Assembly (NCBI RefSeq): GCF_012027305.1
Contig: NZ_SNUF01000001.1
Span: 310,001-374,000 of the forward strand
Origin: Thermococcus sp. MAR1
GTDB taxonomy: Archaea; Methanobacteriota_B; Thermococci; Thermococcales; Thermococcaceae
DNA length: 64,000 bases
Direction: 5' to 3'
Below the pieces are notes generated by a model. That model did no database searches and was not told the DNA's origin. It worked only from the letters and a program-made list of their open reading frames with translations. Below are positions 13,627-63,506 of this stretch, piece by piece; position 1 is the stretch's first letter, and the number at the start of each line of letters is the position of its first letter. A program made the translations under genes and the position numbers.

Positions 13627-14055
13627 ATGAGGATAATTAACGCTGAAGGACTCATACTCGGAAGGCTCGCCTCGAAGGTCGCCAAGATGCTCCTTGAGGG
13701 CGAGGAAGTCATCATAGTCAACGCCGACAAGGCCATCATCACCGGAAACCGCGAGGACATCTTCGCTAAGTACAAGCAGAGGACCGAGCTGAGAACCAGG
13801 ACCAACCCGAGGAGGGGTCCGTTCTATCCAAAGAGGAGCGATGAGATCGTCAGGAGAACCATCAGGGGAATGCTTCCATGGAAGACCGACCGCGGGAGGA
13901 AGGCCTTCAAGAGGCTCAAGGTCTATGTCGGCGTTCCGAAGGAGTTCGAGGGCAGGGAGCTTGAGACCATAATCGAGGCCCACATGTCAAGGCTCGCAAC
14001 TCCGAAGTACGTTACCGTTGGCGAGGTTGCCAAGTTCCTCGGTGGAAAGTTCTGA
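13627..14055 (+). CDS. rpl13: 50S ribosomal protein L13 (uL13)
   Basis: 142 aa with the archaeal uL13 pattern: [37 protein letters not shown], and [39 protein letters not shown]. Six bases separate it from L18e and eleven from S9, so it belongs to one operon. Confidence 0.96.
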
Positions 14056-14066
14056 GGTGAGAGAAA

Positions 14067-14474
14067 ATGAAGGTCATCCAGACTGCTGGTAAGAGGAAGA
14101 CGGCCATTGCGAGGGCCACAATACGGGAAGGAAAGGGCAGAGTCAGGATCAACCACAAGCCAGTTGAGATAATCGAGCCGGAAATCGCGCGCTTCACCAT
14201 CATGGAGCCGCTCGTCCTTGCCGGTGAGGAGATAGTGAGCAAGGTTGATATCGACGTTAAGGTCGAGGGCGGAGGCTTCATGGGACAGGCCGAGGCTGCA
14301 CGTGTCGCCATAGCTCGCGCTTTAGTCGAGTGGACCAACGACGTGAGCCTCAAGGAAAAGTTTATGAAGTACGACAGAACCATGCTCGTCGGGGACAGCA
14401 GGCGTACCGAGCCGCACAAGCCCAACCGCTCAACCAAGGGTCCGCGCGCCAAGAGGCAGAAGTCCTACCGCTGA
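14067..14474 (+). CDS. rps9: 30S ribosomal protein S9 (uS9)
   Basis: 135 aa. Starts [29 protein letters not shown], and ends with the conserved basic tail [15 protein letters not shown], whose terminal Arg contacts P-site tRNA. ATG follows GAGGTGAGAG. Followed by rpoN, the archaeal L13-S9-RpoN order. Confidence 0.96.
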
Positions 14475-14512
14475 TAGCTTTCCTTTAATATTCATTCGAG
14501 AAGGTGATACGG

Positions 14513-14710
14513 GTGATAGTTCCCGTCAGGTGCTTCACGTGTGGAAAGGTCATAGGGGACAAATACTACGAATTCAAGGCCCGAGTTGAGAAGGGCGAGG
14601 ATCCCGAAAAGGTCCTCGACGACCTCGGGATCGAGAGGTACTGCTGCAGGAGAACCCTGCTGAGCCACGTCGAGCTCATCGATCAGGTAATGGTATACAG
14701 GGTATACTGA
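14513..14710 (+). CDS. rpoN: DNA-directed RNA polymerase subunit N
   Basis: 65 aa, counterpart of eukaryotic Rpb10. The zinc-binding motif is CFTC (Cys 7 and 10) plus the adjacent pair in RYCCRR (Cys 44 and 45), as in all RpoN/Rpb10 proteins. The GTG at 14513 is chosen as start because it gives the conserved [13 protein letters not shown]-terminus and is six bases after GGTGAT (14503-14508). The upstream GTG at 14504 lies inside that site. tRNA-Pro starts 16 bases after the stop. Confidence 0.93.
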
Positions 14711-14726
14711 AAAACCACATTTCTGG

Positions 14727-14804
14727 GGGGCCGTGGGGTAGCTTGGTCTATCCTCCCGGCTTGGGGTGCCGGAGACCCGGGTTCAAATCCCGGCGGCCCC
14801 ACCA
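14727..14804 (+). tRNA. tRNA-Pro (anticodon TGG)
   Basis: Acceptor GGGGCCG/CGGCCCC, anticodon stem CCGGC/GCCGG with loop TTGGGGT (TGG), T arm CCGGG-TTCAAAT-CCCGG, encoded CCA. Lies between rpoN and rpoK, 16 bases after one and 21 before the other, so its excision would separate the two messages. Confidence 0.96.
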
Positions 14805-14825
14805 AAATTTGCACGGGTGGTTGGA

Positions 14826-14999
14826 ATGTTCAGGTACACGAGGTTTGAAAAGGCCCGTATAATTGGAGCAAGGGCCCTCCAGATAGCAATGGGTGCGCCC
14901 ATACTCATCGACGTCCCGGAAGGAATCACGCCGCTCGACGCCGCGCTACTTGAGTTTGAGAAGGGAATAATCCCCCTCACCGTAATCAGGCCGAGCTGA
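14826..14999 (+). CDS. rpoK: DNA-directed RNA polymerase subunit K
   Basis: 57 aa, counterpart of bacterial omega and eukaryotic Rpb6. The conserved core is [22 protein letters not shown], followed by [21 protein letters not shown]. The ATG at 14826 follows GGGTGGTTGG. A longer frame from 14766 would translate the 3' half of tRNA-Pro and is rejected. Confidence 0.95.
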
Positions 15000-15005
15000 T
15001 GAAAG

Positions 15006-16031
15006 ATGACCGTGATAGAGAACGTAATCGGCAGGGTCGCGGTGCTCAAGGGGGGCAAGTATTCCGTCGAGGTAGACGTCATAACGAGCTCGGGCTTTGG
15101 AAGATTTGCATCCCCAATAGACGAGAACCCGAGCCTTTACATAGCCGAGGCTCACCGCGCCGTGAGCGAAGTTGACGAGATAATCGGGCCCGAGCTGATA
15201 GGCTTCGATGCCAGCGAGCAGGAACTCATAGACAGCTACCTCTGGGAGATAGACGGCACCGAGGACTTCAGCCACATCGGGGCCAACACGGCTTTGGCCG
15301 TCTCGATAGCGGTCGCCAAAGCCGCGGCGAGCGTCAAGAGGATGCCCCTATACAGCTACATCGGCGGCACATTCACCACCGAGTTGCCTGTCCCCATACT
15401 GGAAATAGCGAGTGGTGAGGCCTTCGATTACTATGTGATGGTCAGGGACCTCATGGAGATAACCGACGTGGTTGATGCGGTTAACAGGGTGCTTGAGCAT
15501 GCAGGGGCCGGTACTGTGGAGGCCTTCTCGAAGGCCACTGAGAAGGCAACCGACGAACTCGGCCTCGAGGTTGCTCTCGGCCTTGTGCAGAAGGTTCCAA
15601 TGGACATGGAGGAAGTGCTCTCCGTAGTCGAGGACAACAACGTGGCCTACATAAGGCCCCTCGGCGACGAGGAGCTGTTCCTTGAGCTAATCGCTGGCAC
15701 CCACGAGGTGTTCGTTGACGGCGAGCACCTCTTCCGCGAGAAGGACATACTGGACAGGCGCTACTACAACGCCCTGTCGATAAAGCCTATAAACCTAGGC
15801 ACGCTCACCGACTTATACAATCTCGTGAACGACGCAAAGTCGGAGAGGATAACCCCCATCCTCGCGGAGGCTCGCTACGAGTCCTCCGATGAGGCATTGG
15901 CCCACCTTGCGGTGGGTCTGCGCTGCCCGGCGATGGTGCTCCGCTCGAACTCCATCGCCAAGCTGAATGAGCTGATAAGAATAGCCGAAGATTTGGGTGA
16001 AAGGGGTAGGATAATAACCTTTGAAGGATGA
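15006..16031 (+). CDS. Enolase-like protein, catalytic residues missing
   Basis: 341 aa, about 90 shorter than true enolases. The fold is recognisable: VEVDV (residues 21-25), SHIGANTALAVSIAVAKAAA (89-108), PLYSYIGG and ELPVPILEI, SIKPINLGTLTD (258-269), and RSNSIAKLNELIRIAEDLG (313-331). The Lys of SIKP (260) matches a catalytic lysine, but the GDEGGFAP segment with the acid/base Glu is absent, SHRSGET is replaced by AEARYES (287-293), and the second catalytic Lys is lost. It probably has no 2-phosphoglycerate dehydratase activity. Located between rpoK and S2; the genuine enolase should be elsewhere. Confidence 0.85.
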   Translation: MTVIENVIGRVAVLKGGKYSVEVDVITSSGFGRFASPIDENPSLYIAEAHRAVSEVDEIIGPELIGFDASEQELIDSYLWEIDGTEDFSHIGANTALAVSIAVAKAAASVKRMPLYSYIGGTFTTELPVPILEIASGEAFDYYVMVRDLMEITDVVDAVNRVLEHAGAGTVEAFSKATEKATDELGLEVALGLVQKVPMDMEEVLSVVEDNNVAYIRPLGDEELFLELIAGTHEVFVDGEHLFREKDILDRRYYNALSIKPINLGTLTDLYNLVNDAKSERITPILAEARYESSDEALAHLAVGLRCPAMVLRSNSIAKLNELIRIAEDLGERGRIITFEG

Positions 16032-16044
16032 GGAGGTGTGAAGA

Positions 16045-16650
16045 ATGGAGGAATACCTTGTTCCACTCGACCAGTACCTTGCCGCCGGTGTCCACATCGG
16101 AACCCAGCAGAAGACCCAGGACATGAAGAAGTTCATCTACCGCGTTAGGCAGGACGGTCTCTATGTTCTTGATGTCAGGAAGACCGACGAGAGGCTTAGG
16201 GTTGCCGGCAAGTTCCTGGCCAAGTTCGACCCGGCGAACATCCTGGCCGTTAGCGTCAGGCTCTACGGTCAGAAGCCTGTCAAGAAATTCGGCGATGTCA
16301 CCGGTGCCAGAGCCATTCCGGGCCGTTTCCTGCCGGGAACCATGACCAATCCGAAGGTCAAGAACTTCATGGAGCCGGACGTCCTCATAGTCACCGACCC
16401 GAGGGCCGATCACCAGGCCATGAAGGAGGCCATCGAGATAGGAATCCCAATAGTTGCCCTCGTCGATACCGAGAACTTCCTCAGCTACGTCGATGTTGCA
16501 ATTCCGACCAACAACAAGGGTAGGAAAGCTTTGGCTCTCATCTACTGGATCCTCGCGAGGGAGATACTCTACAACAGGAAGGAGATAGAGAGCAGGGAGG
16601 ACTTCAAGGTTCCTGTTGAAGACTTTGAGATGAGGATCATCAGAACCTGA
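16045..16650 (+). CDS. rps2: 30S ribosomal protein S2 (uS2)
   Basis: 201 aa, the short archaeal uS2. Starts [24 protein letters not shown], with [20 protein letters not shown], the [11 protein letters not shown] segment, and [19 protein letters not shown]. Binds the 30S head-body junction. The ribosome-binding site GAGGTGTG precedes the ATG. Ends the superoperon before tRNA-Leu and L40e. Confidence 0.96.
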
Positions 16651-16690
16651 GGGGAAAGCTTTTAATTTCCCTCGCTTTACTCTCCCTCGC

Positions 16691-16778
16691 GCGGGGGTGC
16701 CCGAGCCTGGCCAAAGGGGGCGGACTTAAGATCCGCTGCCGCAGGGCTGCGCGGGTTCGAATCCCGTCCCCCGCACCA
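16691..16778 (+). tRNA. tRNA-Leu (anticodon TAA)
   Basis: Acceptor GCGGGGG/CCCCCGC, anticodon stem GCGGA/TCCGC with loop CTTAAGA (TAA), long variable arm (TGCCGCAGGGCTGCG), T arm GCGGG-TTCGAAT-CCCGT, encoded CCA. Sits between S2 and L40e. A box A-like AGCTTTTAAAAG directly follows the CCA and may drive L40e. Confidence 0.96.
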
Positions 16779-16835
16779 AAGCTTTAAAAGTCTATGGGGA
16801 TAGGTGTGTTGGATTAAGATCATGAGGTGATCACG

Positions 16836-16994
16836 ATGGCGAGATTCCCAGAGGCTGAGGCCAGAATCTTTAGGAAGTACATCTGCATGCGCTGTGGCGC
16901 TACCAACCCGTGGAAGGCCAAGAAGTGCAGAAAGTGCGGCTACAAGGGTCTCCGCCCGAAGGCAAGAGAGCCGCGCGGTGGAATGGGACGCTGA
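16836..16994 (+). CDS. rpl40e: 50S ribosomal protein L40e
   Basis: 52 aa, basic, four cysteines in two CxxC pairs (CMRC at residues 17-20 and CRKC at 31-34), forming a zinc ribbon. The sequence [18 protein letters not shown] and the tail [15 protein letters not shown] are typical of archaeal L40e, which in eukaryotes is fused to ubiquitin. The ATG follows GAGGTGATCACG. Its stop codon is part of the terminator hairpin that follows. Confidence 0.93.
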
Positions 16995-17008
16995 GGGCTT
17001 TAGCCCTC
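16993..17008 (+). terminator. Terminator hairpin after L40e
   Basis: GAGGGC-TTTA-GCCCTC, a perfect six-base-pair stem that begins within the L40e stop codon and is followed by a T-rich tract (GGGTTTCTCTTTT). It closes the ribosomal region. Confidence 0.65.
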
Positions 17009-17066
17009 AAGGGTTTCTCTTTTGCACTTTTCTACGCATTATTAAACAGAGAAAGTTTGGAGAAAT

Positions 17067-17393
17067 TCACTCCTTGAGCTTCGAGAGCATGTCCTCAAGA
17101 AAGGCTATCCCTTCCTCGAAGAGCTTCTCACCCTCCGGGGTGAGCCTGTAGTACTTCCTCGACGGCTTCCCCGTTTCGCTCTCCTGCCACTCCGCGGTAA
17201 CGTAGCCATCCTTCTCCAGCTTGTAGAGGACGACGTACGAGCTAACCGTCGCAGGCTCGAAGTTGAAGGCTTCCCTTATCCTCTCCTTGAGCTCATACGC
17301 ATACATGGGTCTCTCTTTCAGGAGCCTCAGGATGTAGAGCCACAGAACCTCTTTCGTTATCTTGTTCTTGAGCCTCTCCATTGGGGTCGTCAT
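17067..17393 (-). CDS. PadR family transcriptional regulator
   Basis: 108 aa winged-helix protein. The PadR pattern is clear: LWLYILRLLKERPMYAYELKERI (recognition region), TVSSYVVLYKLEKDGYVTAEW, and the wing/dimer part GKPSRKYYRLTPEGEKLFEE. The C-terminal helix is short, as in subfamily 1. Divergent from the FUN14 gene, with a perfect inverted repeat in the 111-base gap, so autoregulation and control of the FUN14/flippase pair are likely. Inducer unknown. Confidence 0.88.
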   Translation of the reverse strand: MTTPMERLKNKITKEVLWLYILRLLKERPMYAYELKERIREAFNFEPATVSSYVVLYKLEKDGYVTAEWQESETGKPSRKYYRLTPEGEKLFEEGIAFLEDMLSKLKE

Positions 17394-17444
17394 GGTCTCA
17401 CACCTACTTTTATGCTTTGGAAATATTTTGAAGTCGTGTAATTT

Positions 17445-17466
17445 AAACGTTTTGGCAAAAACGTTT
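17445..17466. promoter_or_regulatory. Perfect inverted repeat, probable PadR operator
   Basis: AAACGTTTT-GGCA-AAAACGTTT, two nine-base half-sites with a four-base spacer, midway between the divergent padR-like and FUN14 genes. It overlaps TTTAAACG (box A for the minus strand) and AACGTTTTATCC (box A for the plus strand), so a dimeric regulator bound here would block both promoters. Confidence 0.65.
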
Positions 17467-17504
17467 TATCCTAGGGAGGTTAGTATTATGCAGGTGAGCG
17501 TACT

Positions 17505-17804
17505 ATGGAGTTAAACCTAAGCGCAATGGTTGGTGACGTAGGGGTTGGAGGGATAGCGGGTTTCCTAACGGGGTTTGCCTTAAAGAAAGTGATGAAACTG
17601 GCGATGGCTTTAATAGGTGCCTATTTGCTCAGTCTCTTCTGGCTTCAGCAGAAGGGAGTGATAACAATAAACACAGATAAACTGTTCAACCTTGCTGGCG
17701 ATTTAACGACTCAGATTGCAACCCTTGGTCAAAAAGTACTCGGCATTCTACCTGGTACGGGGGCATTCATAGCCGGGTTCTATATCGGCTTCCAAAAAGG
17801 TTAA
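17505..17804 (+). CDS. FUN14 family membrane protein
   Basis: 99 aa. Two to three hydrophobic segments: GDVGVGGIAGFLTGFALKKVMKLAMALIGAYLLSLFWLQ (residues about 10-48) and LGILPGTGAFIAGFYIGFQKG at the C-terminus. The GxxxGxxxG-like pattern and the G-F-Y-x-G-F ending are those of the FUN14 domain, known in the mitochondrial mitophagy receptor FUNDC1 and in archaeal proteins of unknown role. The gene ends 24 bases before the flippase. Confidence 0.8.
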   Translation: MELNLSAMVGDVGVGGIAGFLTGFALKKVMKLAMALIGAYLLSLFWLQQKGVITINTDKLFNLAGDLTTQIATLGQKVLGILPGTGAFIAGFYIGFQKG

Positions 17805-17828
17805 ATTTTTCCTCTTCTTTCTCCACCC

Positions 17829-19151
17829 ATGAGCTACGAGCGCCGGGTCATCCTACGCCATTCACTGGCATCGGTGATTGCCCTAGCCCTCACCGGGCTA
17901 ACCAGGTTTCTGTACAGTGTGGTGATCGCGAGGCGTTTTGGCCTTGAGGCGCTGGGGATGGCGAATTCTCTTATCTCAAAGGCCTTCTTTGTTGCTATAC
18001 CCCTGAGCTTTTTCGCAGTAGCTCTCGGCAAATACGCCTCTGAGTTCTTGGGTAGTGAGAGGGAGGATGCAATACGCTCCATAACACTCCCTTCGTTTCT
18101 TCTCCCACTGGCCGGCCTGCTCCTCATTCCAGTAAATCTTTACCTGGGAGCCCTCGCAACGCTCCGGGGAATCCAGCTGACCCTTAGAAACTTCCTCTAC
18201 GGCATCCATAGGGGAGAACATTACGCGTACATAATAACCTTGGCTTTCGTGGGCTTTCTGGTGGGGTTTTTGCTTCCCGACATCTTTGCCCCGTACCTGC
18301 TCTTCCTGGGACTGATAGCGGTTTTCTCCGTTGCCTATCTGGCGAGGTTTGATTTCGTCGGAAAACCCCGAAAAAGCGAAATGAACCTACTCCTCTCGTA
18401 TTCCTCCTTCGCATTCCTAGGAACCCTATCAGGCGTTTTCCTGATACAGGCTCCCTATTTCATGAGTGAGTACCTGTCCAGCCCCGAAGTTGCGGGAGTG
18501 GTATCGGCAATACTCTCCGCGGCTTTTCTCCTAACGTACCTACCCCAGGTTCTCCAGTCTTCCATAATGCCCATCTTCTCGTACAAATACGGCAGAAACG
18601 AGGGTGACTATGTTAGACTCCTTGCCGAGAAGACAACGGCCTTTTTGATACTTGCCACAGGCTCTGCAGTATTTGTCCTAATGATTCTGGGCAGGGAGGT
18701 TCTCTCGGCAATATTCGGCTTCGATGTAGGCCCTGCATTCTACCTTGCCCTCATGGCTGTGGAAATTTACATAACCTACAACCCCAGCATAGTCGCCCTG
18801 AACTCAACAGCCTATGTTAAGAGGGGGACGTTTGTGGCGCTCTTTGGAGCCTTGGTGGCTCTTCTCGCGTGGTTCTATCTTATACCAGCGTTTGGGGCCA
18901 TTGGGGTGATAACTGGCTTGGTAATTGGCTATACTATCATACTCCTGGGCGTGGCCCACTATGCAAGAGCCCTTCTGGATATATCCCCCAGAATATACTC
19001 CCCCCTGGCCTTGGTGTTGCTTCTTCAGTCCCTAGTGTTCCTGTCGAAGTATGTCCTTCTTGCTGGTTTCTTGCTTTTTCTTGTCTACGAGAGAGGGGAA
19101 ATAATGGAGGGGATAGACCTCCTCAAATCCTTCCGTGGTAGAGGATCCTGA
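17829..19151 (+). CDS. Oligosaccharide flippase family (MOP/Wzx-like) membrane protein
   Basis: 440 aa with about 12-14 hydrophobic segments along its whole length, beginning LRHSLASVIALALTGLTRFLYSVVIARRFGLEALG, which is the N-terminal signature of the polysaccharide transporter branch of the MOP superfamily. Expected to flip a lipid-linked glycan or similar lipid across the membrane. GGTTAAATTTTTCC (17799-17812) could be a box A placing the start at the ATG itself, and no Shine-Dalgarno is visible (TTCTCCACCC), so it may be leaderless. Its 3' end overlaps the convergent phosphoesterase-like gene by 29 bases. Confidence 0.8.
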   Translation: MSYERRVILRHSLASVIALALTGLTRFLYSVVIARRFGLEALGMANSLISKAFFVAIPLSFFAVALGKYASEFLGSEREDAIRSITLPSFLLPLAGLLLIPVNLYLGALATLRGIQLTLRNFLYGIHRGEHYAYIITLAFVGFLVGFLLPDIFAPYLLFLGLIAVFSVAYLARFDFVGKPRKSEMNLLLSYSSFAFLGTLSGVFLIQAPYFMSEYLSSPEVAGVVSAILSAAFLLTYLPQVLQSSIMPIFSYKYGRNEGDYVRLLAEKTTAFLILATGSAVFVLMILGREVLSAIFGFDVGPAFYLALMAVEIYITYNPSIVALNSTAYVKRGTFVALFGALVALLAWFYLIPAFGAIGVITGLVIGYTIILLGVAHYARALLDISPRIYSPLALVLLLQSLVFLSKYVLLAGFLLFLVYERGEIMEGIDLLKSFRGRGS

Positions 19152-19878
19152 CGAGCTCCCCGGGAAGGCCTTCCCCGCGTATCCTATCCTCTATGAGCTT
19201 CTTGTCGTAGTCAACCTCTATGAACTTTGTGTGGAGTGTATCGACATCAACCAGCGCAAACGTTGCCTTGTGCTCCCTTCCGGGTGGAAAACCTATGCTT
19301 CCGGGGCAGATAATCCTTCCGTAGCGGGTCATGGCGTTGACCGGATACCTCGGTGATGCCACGAAGAGTATCTCGTAGTCTTTCACTGAACGCATTATTG
19401 TCTCGTAGTAGCTCGTCGGCTGTTCCGGGAGAACGATGCCTCCGAAGGGATCGAGTGGGCTTCCGTAAACACCAAAAATGTCGTTCTTTCCAACCCTGTC
19501 GACTAGATAAACTGGAAGGTCACGTATAAACTCCCTGCCATCGTGATCGAGCTTTTCCCACGTGTACTTCAGGGCCCGCTTTATATATTCTGGGTAGTTC
19601 ACGCGATCGATGTAGTCCGGCCCCTCACTATGTGGATCGCTTTCTGCTATAACCTGGTCGAACTCACCGCGGATGACCTTAACACGGTTGTTCCTTATAA
19701 GGTCGTCCAGGGCATCCAGGACCTCTCTCGGATACGGGAACAGGCCAACCACGTTTCCAAGGATGTAGTACTTTTCAATTTCGTAGCCCTCCTCTTTGAG
19801 GGTCTCTATCTTTTCAAGAGCCTTTGCAAGGGCTGGGAGGTTGCCGTTTACGTTTGCCAGAACCGCAACGTACACCAT
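19123..19878 (-). CDS. Metallophosphoesterase-fold protein lacking metal ligands
   Basis: 251 aa with the order of motifs of YfcE/MJ0936-type phosphodiesterases, but with nearly every metal ligand changed. The first motif is ANVNGN instead of SDIHGN (Asp9 to Asn, His11 to Asn). LGNVVG replaces GDxVG (Asp42 to Asn), RGEFD replaces RGNHD (Asn72 to Glu, His73 to Phe), VYGSPLDPFGG replaces HGSPxDP (His138 to Tyr), and VASPRYP stands where AGHTH is expected. CPGSIG remains near residue 191. A pseudoenzyme, perhaps a ligand sensor, is the best reading. ATG follows GGAGGTGGGAGG. Confidence 0.85.
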   Translation of the reverse strand: MVYVAVLANVNGNLPALAKALEKIETLKEEGYEIEKYYILGNVVGLFPYPREVLDALDDLIRNNRVKVIRGEFDQVIAESDPHSEGPDYIDRVNYPEYIKRALKYTWEKLDHDGREFIRDLPVYLVDRVGKNDIFGVYGSPLDPFGGIVLPEQPTSYYETIMRSVKDYEILFVASPRYPVNAMTRYGRIICPGSIGFPPGREHKATFALVDVDTLHTKFIEVDYDKKLIEDRIRGEGLPGELVRILYHGRI

Positions 19879-19957
19879 CCTCCCACCTCCAGTTTTTTCT
19901 TACCAAAATATACTAAAAGAGGTAGGATATTTAAATGTTTTGGGTCGAGAGGTAACT

Positions 19958-20294: not shown

Positions 20295-20372
20295 TGGCGG
20301 ACCGGCGGGGATTTGAACCCCGGACCTGCGGCTTAGGAGGCCGCCGCCCTATCCTAGCTAGGCTACCGGTCC
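20295..20372 (-). tRNA. tRNA-Arg (anticodon CCT)
   Basis: Read on the minus strand: acceptor GGACCGG/CCGGTCC, anticodon stem GCGGC/GCCGC with loop CTCCTAA (CCT), T arm with GGTTCAAAT, encoded CCA. Three bases after the CCA comes AAACTTTT, a trailer shared with two other single tRNA genes in this window. Its box A overlaps that of the divergent Lrp-family gene. Confidence 0.95.
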
Positions 20373-20415: not shown

Positions 20416-20439
20416 GGTGTATTCTTCCCGGTGGTGAGA

Positions 20440-20892
20440 ATGGTGGACGAGCTGGACCTTAGGATACTCTCTCTGCTCCAGGAGAACGCTAGGCTCTCTT
20501 ATCGCGAGATAGCCCGCGAATTGAAGGTAGCGGTTGGAACAGTGTATAACCGTATCAAGAGGATGGAAGAGGAGGGGATAATAAAGGGTTTTGCGCCCAT
20601 TCTTGACTACGAGAAGCTTGGCTTCGGCCTCACTACAGTCATAGGGGTCAAAGCCCAGGGCAGGAGGATAGTTGAGATAGAGCGAGAAATAGCCCAGAGC
20701 AACCGGGTGATAATGGTCTACGACATAACGGGGGAGTTCGACATAGTCGTGGTTGCCAAGTTCAAGGACAGGGCTGATATGAACCGCTTTGTCAAGTGGC
20801 TCCTCTCGCTGGAAGGGGTGGAAAAAACGAACACGAGCGTGGCGATGCAGGTTGTGAAGGAAGATCTGAGGCTTAAACTAACGGAGGACTAG
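20440..20892 (+). CDS. Lrp/AsnC family transcriptional regulator
   Basis: 150 aa with an N-terminal winged helix-turn-helix (ELDLRILSLLQENARLSYREIARELKVAVGTVYNRIKRMEEEGIIKGF, residues about 5-50) and a C-terminal RAM ligand-binding/oligomerisation domain (VIGVKAQ, MVYDITGEFDIVVVAKFKD). Probably responds to an amino acid or related metabolite. The ATG at 20440 is preferred, although GTGs at 20431, 20434 and 20443 are possible. The 3' end overlaps the convergent gene at 20878 by 15 bases. Confidence 0.88.
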   Translation: MVDELDLRILSLLQENARLSYREIARELKVAVGTVYNRIKRMEEEGIIKGFAPILDYEKLGFGLTTVIGVKAQGRRIVEIEREIAQSNRVIMVYDITGEFDIVVVAKFKDRADMNRFVKWLLSLEGVEKTNTSVAMQVVKEDLRLKLTED

Positions 20893-48281: not shown

Positions 48282-48307
48282 GCGGGCCAAGCCCGCGGGA
48301 TGTTCCC
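48282..48307 (+). promoter_or_regulatory. Tandem hairpins in the L15e leader
   Basis: GCGGGC-CAA-GCCCGC (48282-48296) is directly followed by GGGA-TGT-TCCC (48297-48307) in the predicted leader of L15e. The first stem would begin within about five nucleotides of the transcript start. Possibly a ribosomal-protein-binding leader or a 5' protective structure. Confidence 0.45.
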
Positions 48308-48341
48308 GGGAGGGAGAACCACAAGCTAAGGAGGGAGCAAG

Positions 48342-63445: not shown

Positions 63446-63506
63446 GGTGCCCGATGATTGGAACGCGAGTGATCTGATGGGTGATGACCGACTTCTCGCT
63501 GAGGGC
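63446..63506 (+). ncRNA. Candidate C/D box sRNA (2'-O-methylation guide)
   Basis: C-like box CCGATGA (63451-63457), D' box CTGA (63474-63477), C' box GTGATGA (63481-63487) and D box CTGA (63499-63502), with a 16-base and an 11-base guide between them, 52 bases in all. This is the standard archaeal C/D layout. The three-base D'-C' spacer is typical. GCC/GGC flanking bases could form a terminal stem. The C box has the GATGA core but lacks the usual RT. Target RNA not identified. Confidence 0.45.

Follow-up and report, generated by a model that had tools for sequence, protein, structure and literature searches.

Loss of the metal ligands in a calcineurin-fold protein family of Thermococcales and Archaeoglobaceae, and a predicted Phr heat-shock operator in its promoter

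Structural relatives of the protein and its metal site

The protein described here and its fold are not new, because the structures of two full-length orthologues are already in the PDB: 1NNW from Pyrococcus furiosus, which we take to be the product of PF1291, and 2GJU from Pyrococcus horikoshii (PH1004). Neither entry was assigned a function on deposition, the proteins being named hypothetical, and the literature search found no papers on PF1291, PH1004, 2GJU or the function of 1NNW; the initial annotation of the locus did not mention these structures. The nearest structures of an active type are 3RQZ and SapH (Spr1479; 3QFM, 3QFN), an asymmetric Ap4A hydrolase and phosphodiesterase. MJ0936 (1S3L) and YfcE (TIGR00040) possess the same superfamily fold and retain the metal ligands; Vps29 and the DNA polymerase B subunits use this fold without catalysis. 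On the side of regulation, the closest described system is the Phr heat-shock regulon of Pyrococcus and Thermococcus, which includes hsp20, the VAT ATPase, PbaA, MIPS and others. Phr requires TTTA at −10, TGGTAA at the start site and AAAA at +10 (PMC6316755).

In the window, a stretch of 64,000 nucleotides from Thermococcus sp. MAR1, the gene is, as the initial annotation had stated, an intact reading frame with a good ribosome-binding site; it starts with ATG (Table 1). An AF2 model of the protein, calculated from 58 sequences, reached a pLDDT of 94.8; an earlier model from 20 close orthologues (pLDDT 51) was set aside. The model agreed with 2GJU and 1NNW with a TM of 0.96, and these orthologues were also found by sequence with 70-71% identity over 249-250 residues and an E value of about 1e-125. 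Together with the match to PF00149 (calcineurin-like phosphoesterase) of 22.4 bits, at a gathering cut-off of 21.5, the model points to a retained double beta-sandwich calcineurin-like fold, as had been claimed. No match was obtained with the NCBIfam phosphoesterase models.

Table 1. Coordinates of the features at the locus and of further matches in the window
Feature	Position	Strand	Remark
Membrane-protein ("flippase") gene	17829-19151	+	Convergent neighbour of the pseudo-phosphoesterase gene
Pseudo-phosphoesterase gene, 251 aa	19123-19878	−	Orthologous to PDB entries 1NNW and 2GJU
Motif V, codons 174-177, GHTH to A174-S175-P176-R177	19348-19359	−	Alignment with canonical paralogue
Motif IV, codons 138-141, HGSP to Y138-GSP	19456-19467	−	Alignment with canonical paralogue
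Motif III, codons 71-74, GNHD to G-E72-F73-D	19657-19668	−	Ligand Asn and catalytic His gone
Motif II, codons 41-42, G-D to G-N42	19753-19758	−	Alignment with canonical paralogue
Motif I, codons 9-11, D-x-H to N9-V-N11	19846-19854	−	Alignment with canonical paralogue
Shine-Dalgarno sequence GGAGGTG	19884-19890	−	
Predicted operator of Phr (heat-shock regulator), TTTTAGTATATTTTGGTAAGAAAA	19895-19918	−	Fits TTTA / TGGTAA / AAAA
TATA box of the gene's own promoter, ATTTAAATA	19928-19936	−	
tRNA-Arg (CCT)	20295-20372	−	Upstream of the gene, beyond a long intergenic stretch
Lrp/AsnC regulator	20431-20892	+	Upstream of the gene, beyond a long intergenic stretch
eL15 ribosomal leader of Euryarchaeota	48283-48325	+	Rfam match
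C/D-box RNA sR58	63450-63504	+	Rfam match

After the orthologues, the next structural matches were 3RQZ and SapH with TM values of 0.71-0.81. SapH has its fold and length in common with the MAR1 protein, with a TM of about 0.80 over 265-269 columns. MJ0936 followed as the 16th structural match (TM 0.48), no YfcE entry was among the 50 structural matches listed, and TIGR00040, the model for YfcE and MJ0936, did not match at E<=1. The Vps29 chains (TM 0.41-0.48) and the B subunit of Pol epsilon (TM 0.44) were similarly remote; the Vps29-type proteins form a different branch with 11-17% identity and have known multi-subunit partners. The proposed assignment to the YfcE/MJ0936 type was to the wrong branch, because SapH and 3RQZ are structurally nearest, and Vps29 and MJ0936 are more distant.

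The MAR1 genome also contains a canonical paralogue (G000:C1:1338286-1338981), which is 27% identical to the 251-aa protein, displays the motifs SDIH / GD / GNHD / HGSP / GHTH and counts SapH and 3RQZ among its sequence relatives. Alignment with this paralogue revealed the changes from DxH to NVN, GD to GN, GNHD to GEFD and HGSP to YGSP just as they had been described. It also settled the register of motif V, in which S175 and R177 occupy the positions of the metal histidines. The loss of GHTH was therefore seen correctly, but the proposed replacement SPRY was one residue out of register and the true replacement is ASPR. The seven metal-ligand positions are occupied by N9, N11, N42, E72, Y138, S175 and R177, and F73 is at the position of the catalytic His. 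Judged from these alignments, the seven ligands and the catalytic His of an active metallophosphoesterase are all absent, and the intact metal site that the SapH-type proteins and the canonical paralogue retain has no counterpart in the pseudo-phosphoesterases, which are only 19-22% identical to SapH and 3RQZ. This excludes the known two-metal mechanism, so that catalysis was probably removed, as the initial annotation had suggested.

The two orthologue structures carry the same substituted motifs (NIAGN, GN, GKYD, YGSP and ASP in the alignments) and do not differ in substance from the MAR1 protein. In a survey of ligands in structural genomics (PSI) entries, 1NNW is grouped with proteins that have no known function; Na and Pt are the sole metals under which it appears, and it is absent from the entries for Zn, Mg, Mn, Fe, Ni, Co and Ca (PMC2954221, Table 3). 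The absence of a catalytic metal from this one crystal entry is weak evidence for a metal-free site.

Fixation of the ligand-free state and a second family in Archaeoglobaceae

The gene was present in 73 of 94 Thermococcales genomes. Among 60 to 63 distinct Thermococcales orthologues, the canonical residue did not occur in a single case at any of the eight positions. Asp was replaced by Asn at positions 9 and 42 (60/60 each), His by Tyr at position 138 and by Ser at position 175 (63/63 each), so that N9, N42, Y138 and S175 are among the invariant replacements. His at position 11 was replaced by Asn (52 orthologues) or Ala (8 orthologues), His at position 177 by Lys (40) or Arg (23), Asn at position 72 by Glu, Lys, Gln or Arg, and the catalytic His at position 73 by Phe, Tyr or Leu. 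On the other hand, all 10 canonical paralogues sampled, one of them from the MAR1 genome, retained all eight residues. This pattern of substitutions is not due to chance.

With dN/dS values of 0.04-0.12 among close orthologues, the ligand-free state is fixed and under purifying selection. This means that the gene is not decaying, as had been argued from its intact frame, although it is dispensable. A recently broken copy, which canonical ligands in close relatives would have indicated, was ruled out, since none of these distinct orthologues retains any ligand. The gene is not essential because 15 of 75 near-complete Thermococcales genomes do not contain it and three more carry it with a single frameshift (G015, L069; G069, L070; G089, L071). 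The promoter box is intact in all three, and the frameshifts may be sequencing errors or a very recent loss. In G023 and G039, the gene was cleanly deleted between its neighbours.

Conservation was not evenly distributed over the protein: 22 of 40 positions in the motif windows were invariant, compared to 51 of 208 in the remainder (Fisher p=2e-4). Three residues of the old site are fixed in the pseudo-phosphoesterases and not in their canonical relatives, namely N9 and Y138 at former ligand positions and C191 at the Asn of the canonical motif NPGS. The initial annotation had counted CPGS(IG) as a retained canonical motif; the canonical form is NPGS, and N191 was replaced by Cys in 42 of 43 sequences. 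Further residues fixed specifically in this family are E25, Y49, W107, R115, N132, Y157, Y158, T184, F207 and E230. The old metal site thus appears to have been replaced by a conserved signature composed of N9, Y138, C191, R115, Y157-Y158 and T184, which is one of the new findings.

A profile of the orthologues identified a second branch in 25 of 57 Archaeoglobales genomes, with E values down to 6e-71; a 26th genome listed (G405) gave only a weak match of 7e-10. By its motifs, this newly recognized sister family in Archaeoglobaceae also lacks the metal ligands. Motif I reads SN-x-H-GN, with the Asp gone and the His still present in most sequences. In motif II the G remains and the position of the Asp is deleted; RGxxD and Y/FGxP follow, and there is no GHTH. 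In a phylogenetic tree, 23 Thermococcales and 20 Archaeoglobaceae sequences were located together on one side of a branch with 100/100 support, opposite to 15 canonical archaeal relatives, and this grouping was also obtained with all five motif blocks removed from the alignment. The single grouping indicates that the ligands were most simply lost once, before the genes of the two lineages separated, either followed by vertical descent or by one old transfer between Thermococcales and Archaeoglobaceae.

Outside of these lineages, the search extended to several hundred archaeal genomes, among them those of the sister families of the class and a selection from the phylum to which the Archaeoglobaceae belong. 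The sister families gave no close match to the orthologue profile. The best matches that were read outside the two families were all canonical or nearly so. Matches on plasmids were distant (22-24% identity) and, where annotated, only as metallophosphoesterases. One Archaeoglobaceae genome (G422, L178) contains a truncated 92-codon reading frame of the homologue, apparently a decayed copy.

Promoter and gene neighbourhood

The gene possesses its own promoter, and a predicted operator for Phr is located just downstream of the TATA box (Table 1). Its sequence TTTA...TGGTAA.AAAA fits the Phr requirement. Of 65 distinct upstream regions from Thermococcales, 64 contained this operator, which had not been mentioned in the initial annotation, at a distance of 37-48 nt to the start codon; Pyrococcus and the deepest-branching genomes were among them. 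It was conserved although the genes on the upstream side differ. A weight matrix built only from the sites of other heat-shock genes ranked the operator first among all sites of the 64-kb window (20.2 bits; 13.3 for the second-best site). In six Pyrococcus loci, it was the sole such box found in about 12.7 kb.

The extent of the regulon was evaluated by pattern searches of genomes. A loose Phr pattern gave 10 hits in the MAR1 genome, compared to 1 for a reversed control; since a palindromic site counts twice, these represent 8 places. Eleven relatives yielded 33 hits versus 5 in the control. The sites in the MAR1 genome precede, among others, hsp20 (L184), a PAC2/PbaA-like gene, UPF0147, a gene for a CBS-domain protein and one for a 78-aa protein. 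In the relatives, the box precedes the genes for the CDC48/VAT ATPase (L191, L202), hsp20 and, in Pyrococcus, the di-myo-inositol-phosphate (DIP) synthase. Phr-like boxes were also present upstream of the gene for the CBS-domain protein of about 400 aa at L181, L193, L195, L197, L212, L213 and L215, and upstream of that for the 78-81-aa protein at L187, L194, L196, L204 and L210; both are candidate members of the heat-shock regulon.

The pseudo-phosphoesterase gene shares with the Phr regulon the operator, its position after the TATA box and its distance to the ATG, and the distance for the CDC48/VAT ATPase gene in Pyrococcus is the same as that for the pseudo-phosphoesterase gene (41 versus 42 nt), as is the distance for hsp20 in the MAR1 genome (L184). 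The left half-site differs, being TTTAGTWW[AC] versus TTTAGTTAC in the regulon. As in the members of the regulon, the operator would overlap the predicted start site downstream of the TATA box, which suggests that Phr binds to it in vivo and that the gene may be induced by heat. The original Phr target study (Keese 2010) reportedly lists PF1291 together with PF1292, which is adjacent to it by number. A study of heat shock in P. furiosus counts PF1292, which seems to lie at this locus, among the known Phr targets and names it as the only one without induction in its data (PMC10746257). Upstream of the Archaeoglobaceae genes, no heat-shock palindrome was found. The element sought was HSR1-like, CTAAC-N5-GTTAG. 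This means that heat-shock control is supported, at the level of DNA sequence, for the Thermococcales only. A Phr operator in the promoter of a pseudo-phosphoesterase gene would be a new observation and is the best clue to function.

The genes on the upstream side change several times within the Thermococcales and are not common to the Archaeoglobaceae; no general neighbour was found in the Archaeoglobaceae loci and none was conserved across both orders, so that an inference from an operon or conserved neighbour was rejected. At 6 of the 21 loci from Archaeoglobaceae, the homologue adjoins a gene that we take, by recognition of its sequence, to be that for TiaS; both orientations of this gene occur. 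At two loci of the Archaeoglobaceae genus g223 (L136, L140), the homologue is convergent to an L18e-L13-S9-RpoN-RpoK operon, as it is in many Thermococcus genomes (13627-19878 in the window), which could be a shared ancestral order or a coincidence.

The convergent overlap with the "flippase" gene, reported before, is real and comprises 29 nt including the stop codons. The "flippase" protein had no Pfam or NCBIfam match and no relative in the PDB by sequence. Its gene is patchy in Thermococcales and was cleanly lost from a FUN14-PadR locus in many Thermococcus genomes; either of the two convergent genes may be missing from the locus by deletion while its neighbour is still there. A count over 75 near-complete genomes of Thermococcales gave 37 with both genes, 23 only the pseudo-phosphoesterase gene, 10 only the flippase gene and 5 neither (Fisher p=0.77). 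Being convergent, the two genes are not co-transcribed.

Possible function of the protein

These data can be combined into a model in which the protein probably is a pseudo-phosphodiesterase without metals, belongs to the Phr heat-shock regulon and binds a ligand or partner without hydrolysis. The ancestor would have been a SapH-like calcineurin-fold enzyme, an Ap4A hydrolase or phosphodiesterase. Its two-metal site may have given way to a new conserved set of residues, aromatic or capable of hydrogen bonding, before the genes of the Thermococcaceae and the Archaeoglobaceae diverged from their common ancestor. At normal temperature in Thermococcales, Phr would cover the start site of the gene's own promoter. 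Heat shock would relieve this repression for the gene as well as for hsp20, the CDC48/VAT ATPase and, in Pyrococcus, the DIP synthase, and the protein may then bind a phosphodiester, a nucleotide or a protein in or around the old cleft without hydrolysing it. A binding or sensing role is the best guess. With an ancestry among Ap4A-hydrolase-like enzymes, the ligand could be a nucleotide or another phosphodiester.

One speculative candidate for this ligand is DIP, because its synthase occurs in both lineages with the pseudo-phosphoesterase, shares the operator in Pyrococcus and co-occurs with the gene. A Phr-like box is located 65 nt before the start of the gene for the bifunctional inositol-phosphate cytidylyltransferase/DIP synthase in two Pyrococcus genomes (L209, L214); none was seen upstream of the DIP synthase gene in the MAR1 genome. 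In Thermococcales, the synthase was present in 56 of 60 holders of the gene versus 10 of 15 non-holders (p=0.013); for Archaeoglobales the counts were 19 of 19 versus 15 of 23 (p=0.005), the latter mostly due to one genus lacking both, with p values uncorrected for phylogeny or for the two partners tested and a synthase that is nearly universal there. The co-occurrence in Thermococcales is suggestive. One Thermococcus genome that retains the pseudo-phosphoesterase contains the DIP synthase gene in pieces with internal stops (G029:C1:302947-303906).

Alternatively, the protein may be a scaffold or regulatory subunit like Vps29 of the retromer or the B subunits of DNA polymerases, perhaps paired with the canonical paralogue. 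Pseudo-phosphoesterase scaffolds have precedent, and in the structural ranking the Vps29 chains come next behind SapH. The canonical paralogue is nearly universal in Thermococcales, which would provide a partner but also means that co-occurrence cannot test the pairing. This explanation is unlikely, given that no gene neighbour is conserved across both orders and that conservation is concentrated in the old active-site motifs, which a surface scaffold does not need.

Could the protein still be an enzyme, with a metal-independent chemistry or a different substrate at a rebuilt site of Y138, S175, K/R177, C191 and R115? The stronger conservation of the motif windows and the fixed residues C191, Y138 and S175, which are capable of acting as nucleophiles and appear to match positions of the old site, would agree with this. 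We know of no calcineurin-fold enzyme that works without metals, and no orthologue has kept any of the seven ligands or the catalytic His, which makes this reading quite improbable. That 1NNW carries only Na and Pt also speaks against it (PMC2954221).

A dispensable relic on its way out would explain the 15 near-complete genomes without the gene, the clean deletions, the single frameshifts and the truncated remnant in an Archaeoglobaceae genome, but is very hard to reconcile with the low dN/dS values, ligand substitutions common to two archaeal families and an operator that is retained in all but one of the upstream regions, the three frameshifted loci among them. A functional partnership with the flippase, suggested by the convergent adjacency in most Thermococcus and Pyrococcus genomes having both genes, was rejected as barely credible because each gene was lost without the other, their occurrence is independent and they lie apart in the g2 genomes.

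Of the interpretation that had been given initially, the kept fold, the exclusion of two-metal catalysis and the purifying selection stay in place in the preferred reading of a binding protein without hydrolysis, and the YfcE/MJ0936 type and CPGS as a kept motif had to be given up. The protein and its structure were already known. The new contribution is the description of a pseudo-phosphodiesterase in two families under a heat-shock operator, for which the literature searched held no precedent.

Much is known of pseudo-enzymes in eukaryotes, but those of archaea have received little study. A whole family across two archaeal orders, together with two deposited structures that had not been interpreted, can now be described as a metal-free phosphoesterase. 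The context of the Phr heat-shock regulon would turn an orphan of structural genomics into a testable question on the heat response of hyperthermophiles. A role in thermotolerance could be tested directly in Thermococcus kodakarensis or Pyrococcus furiosus, both of which are open to genetic work.
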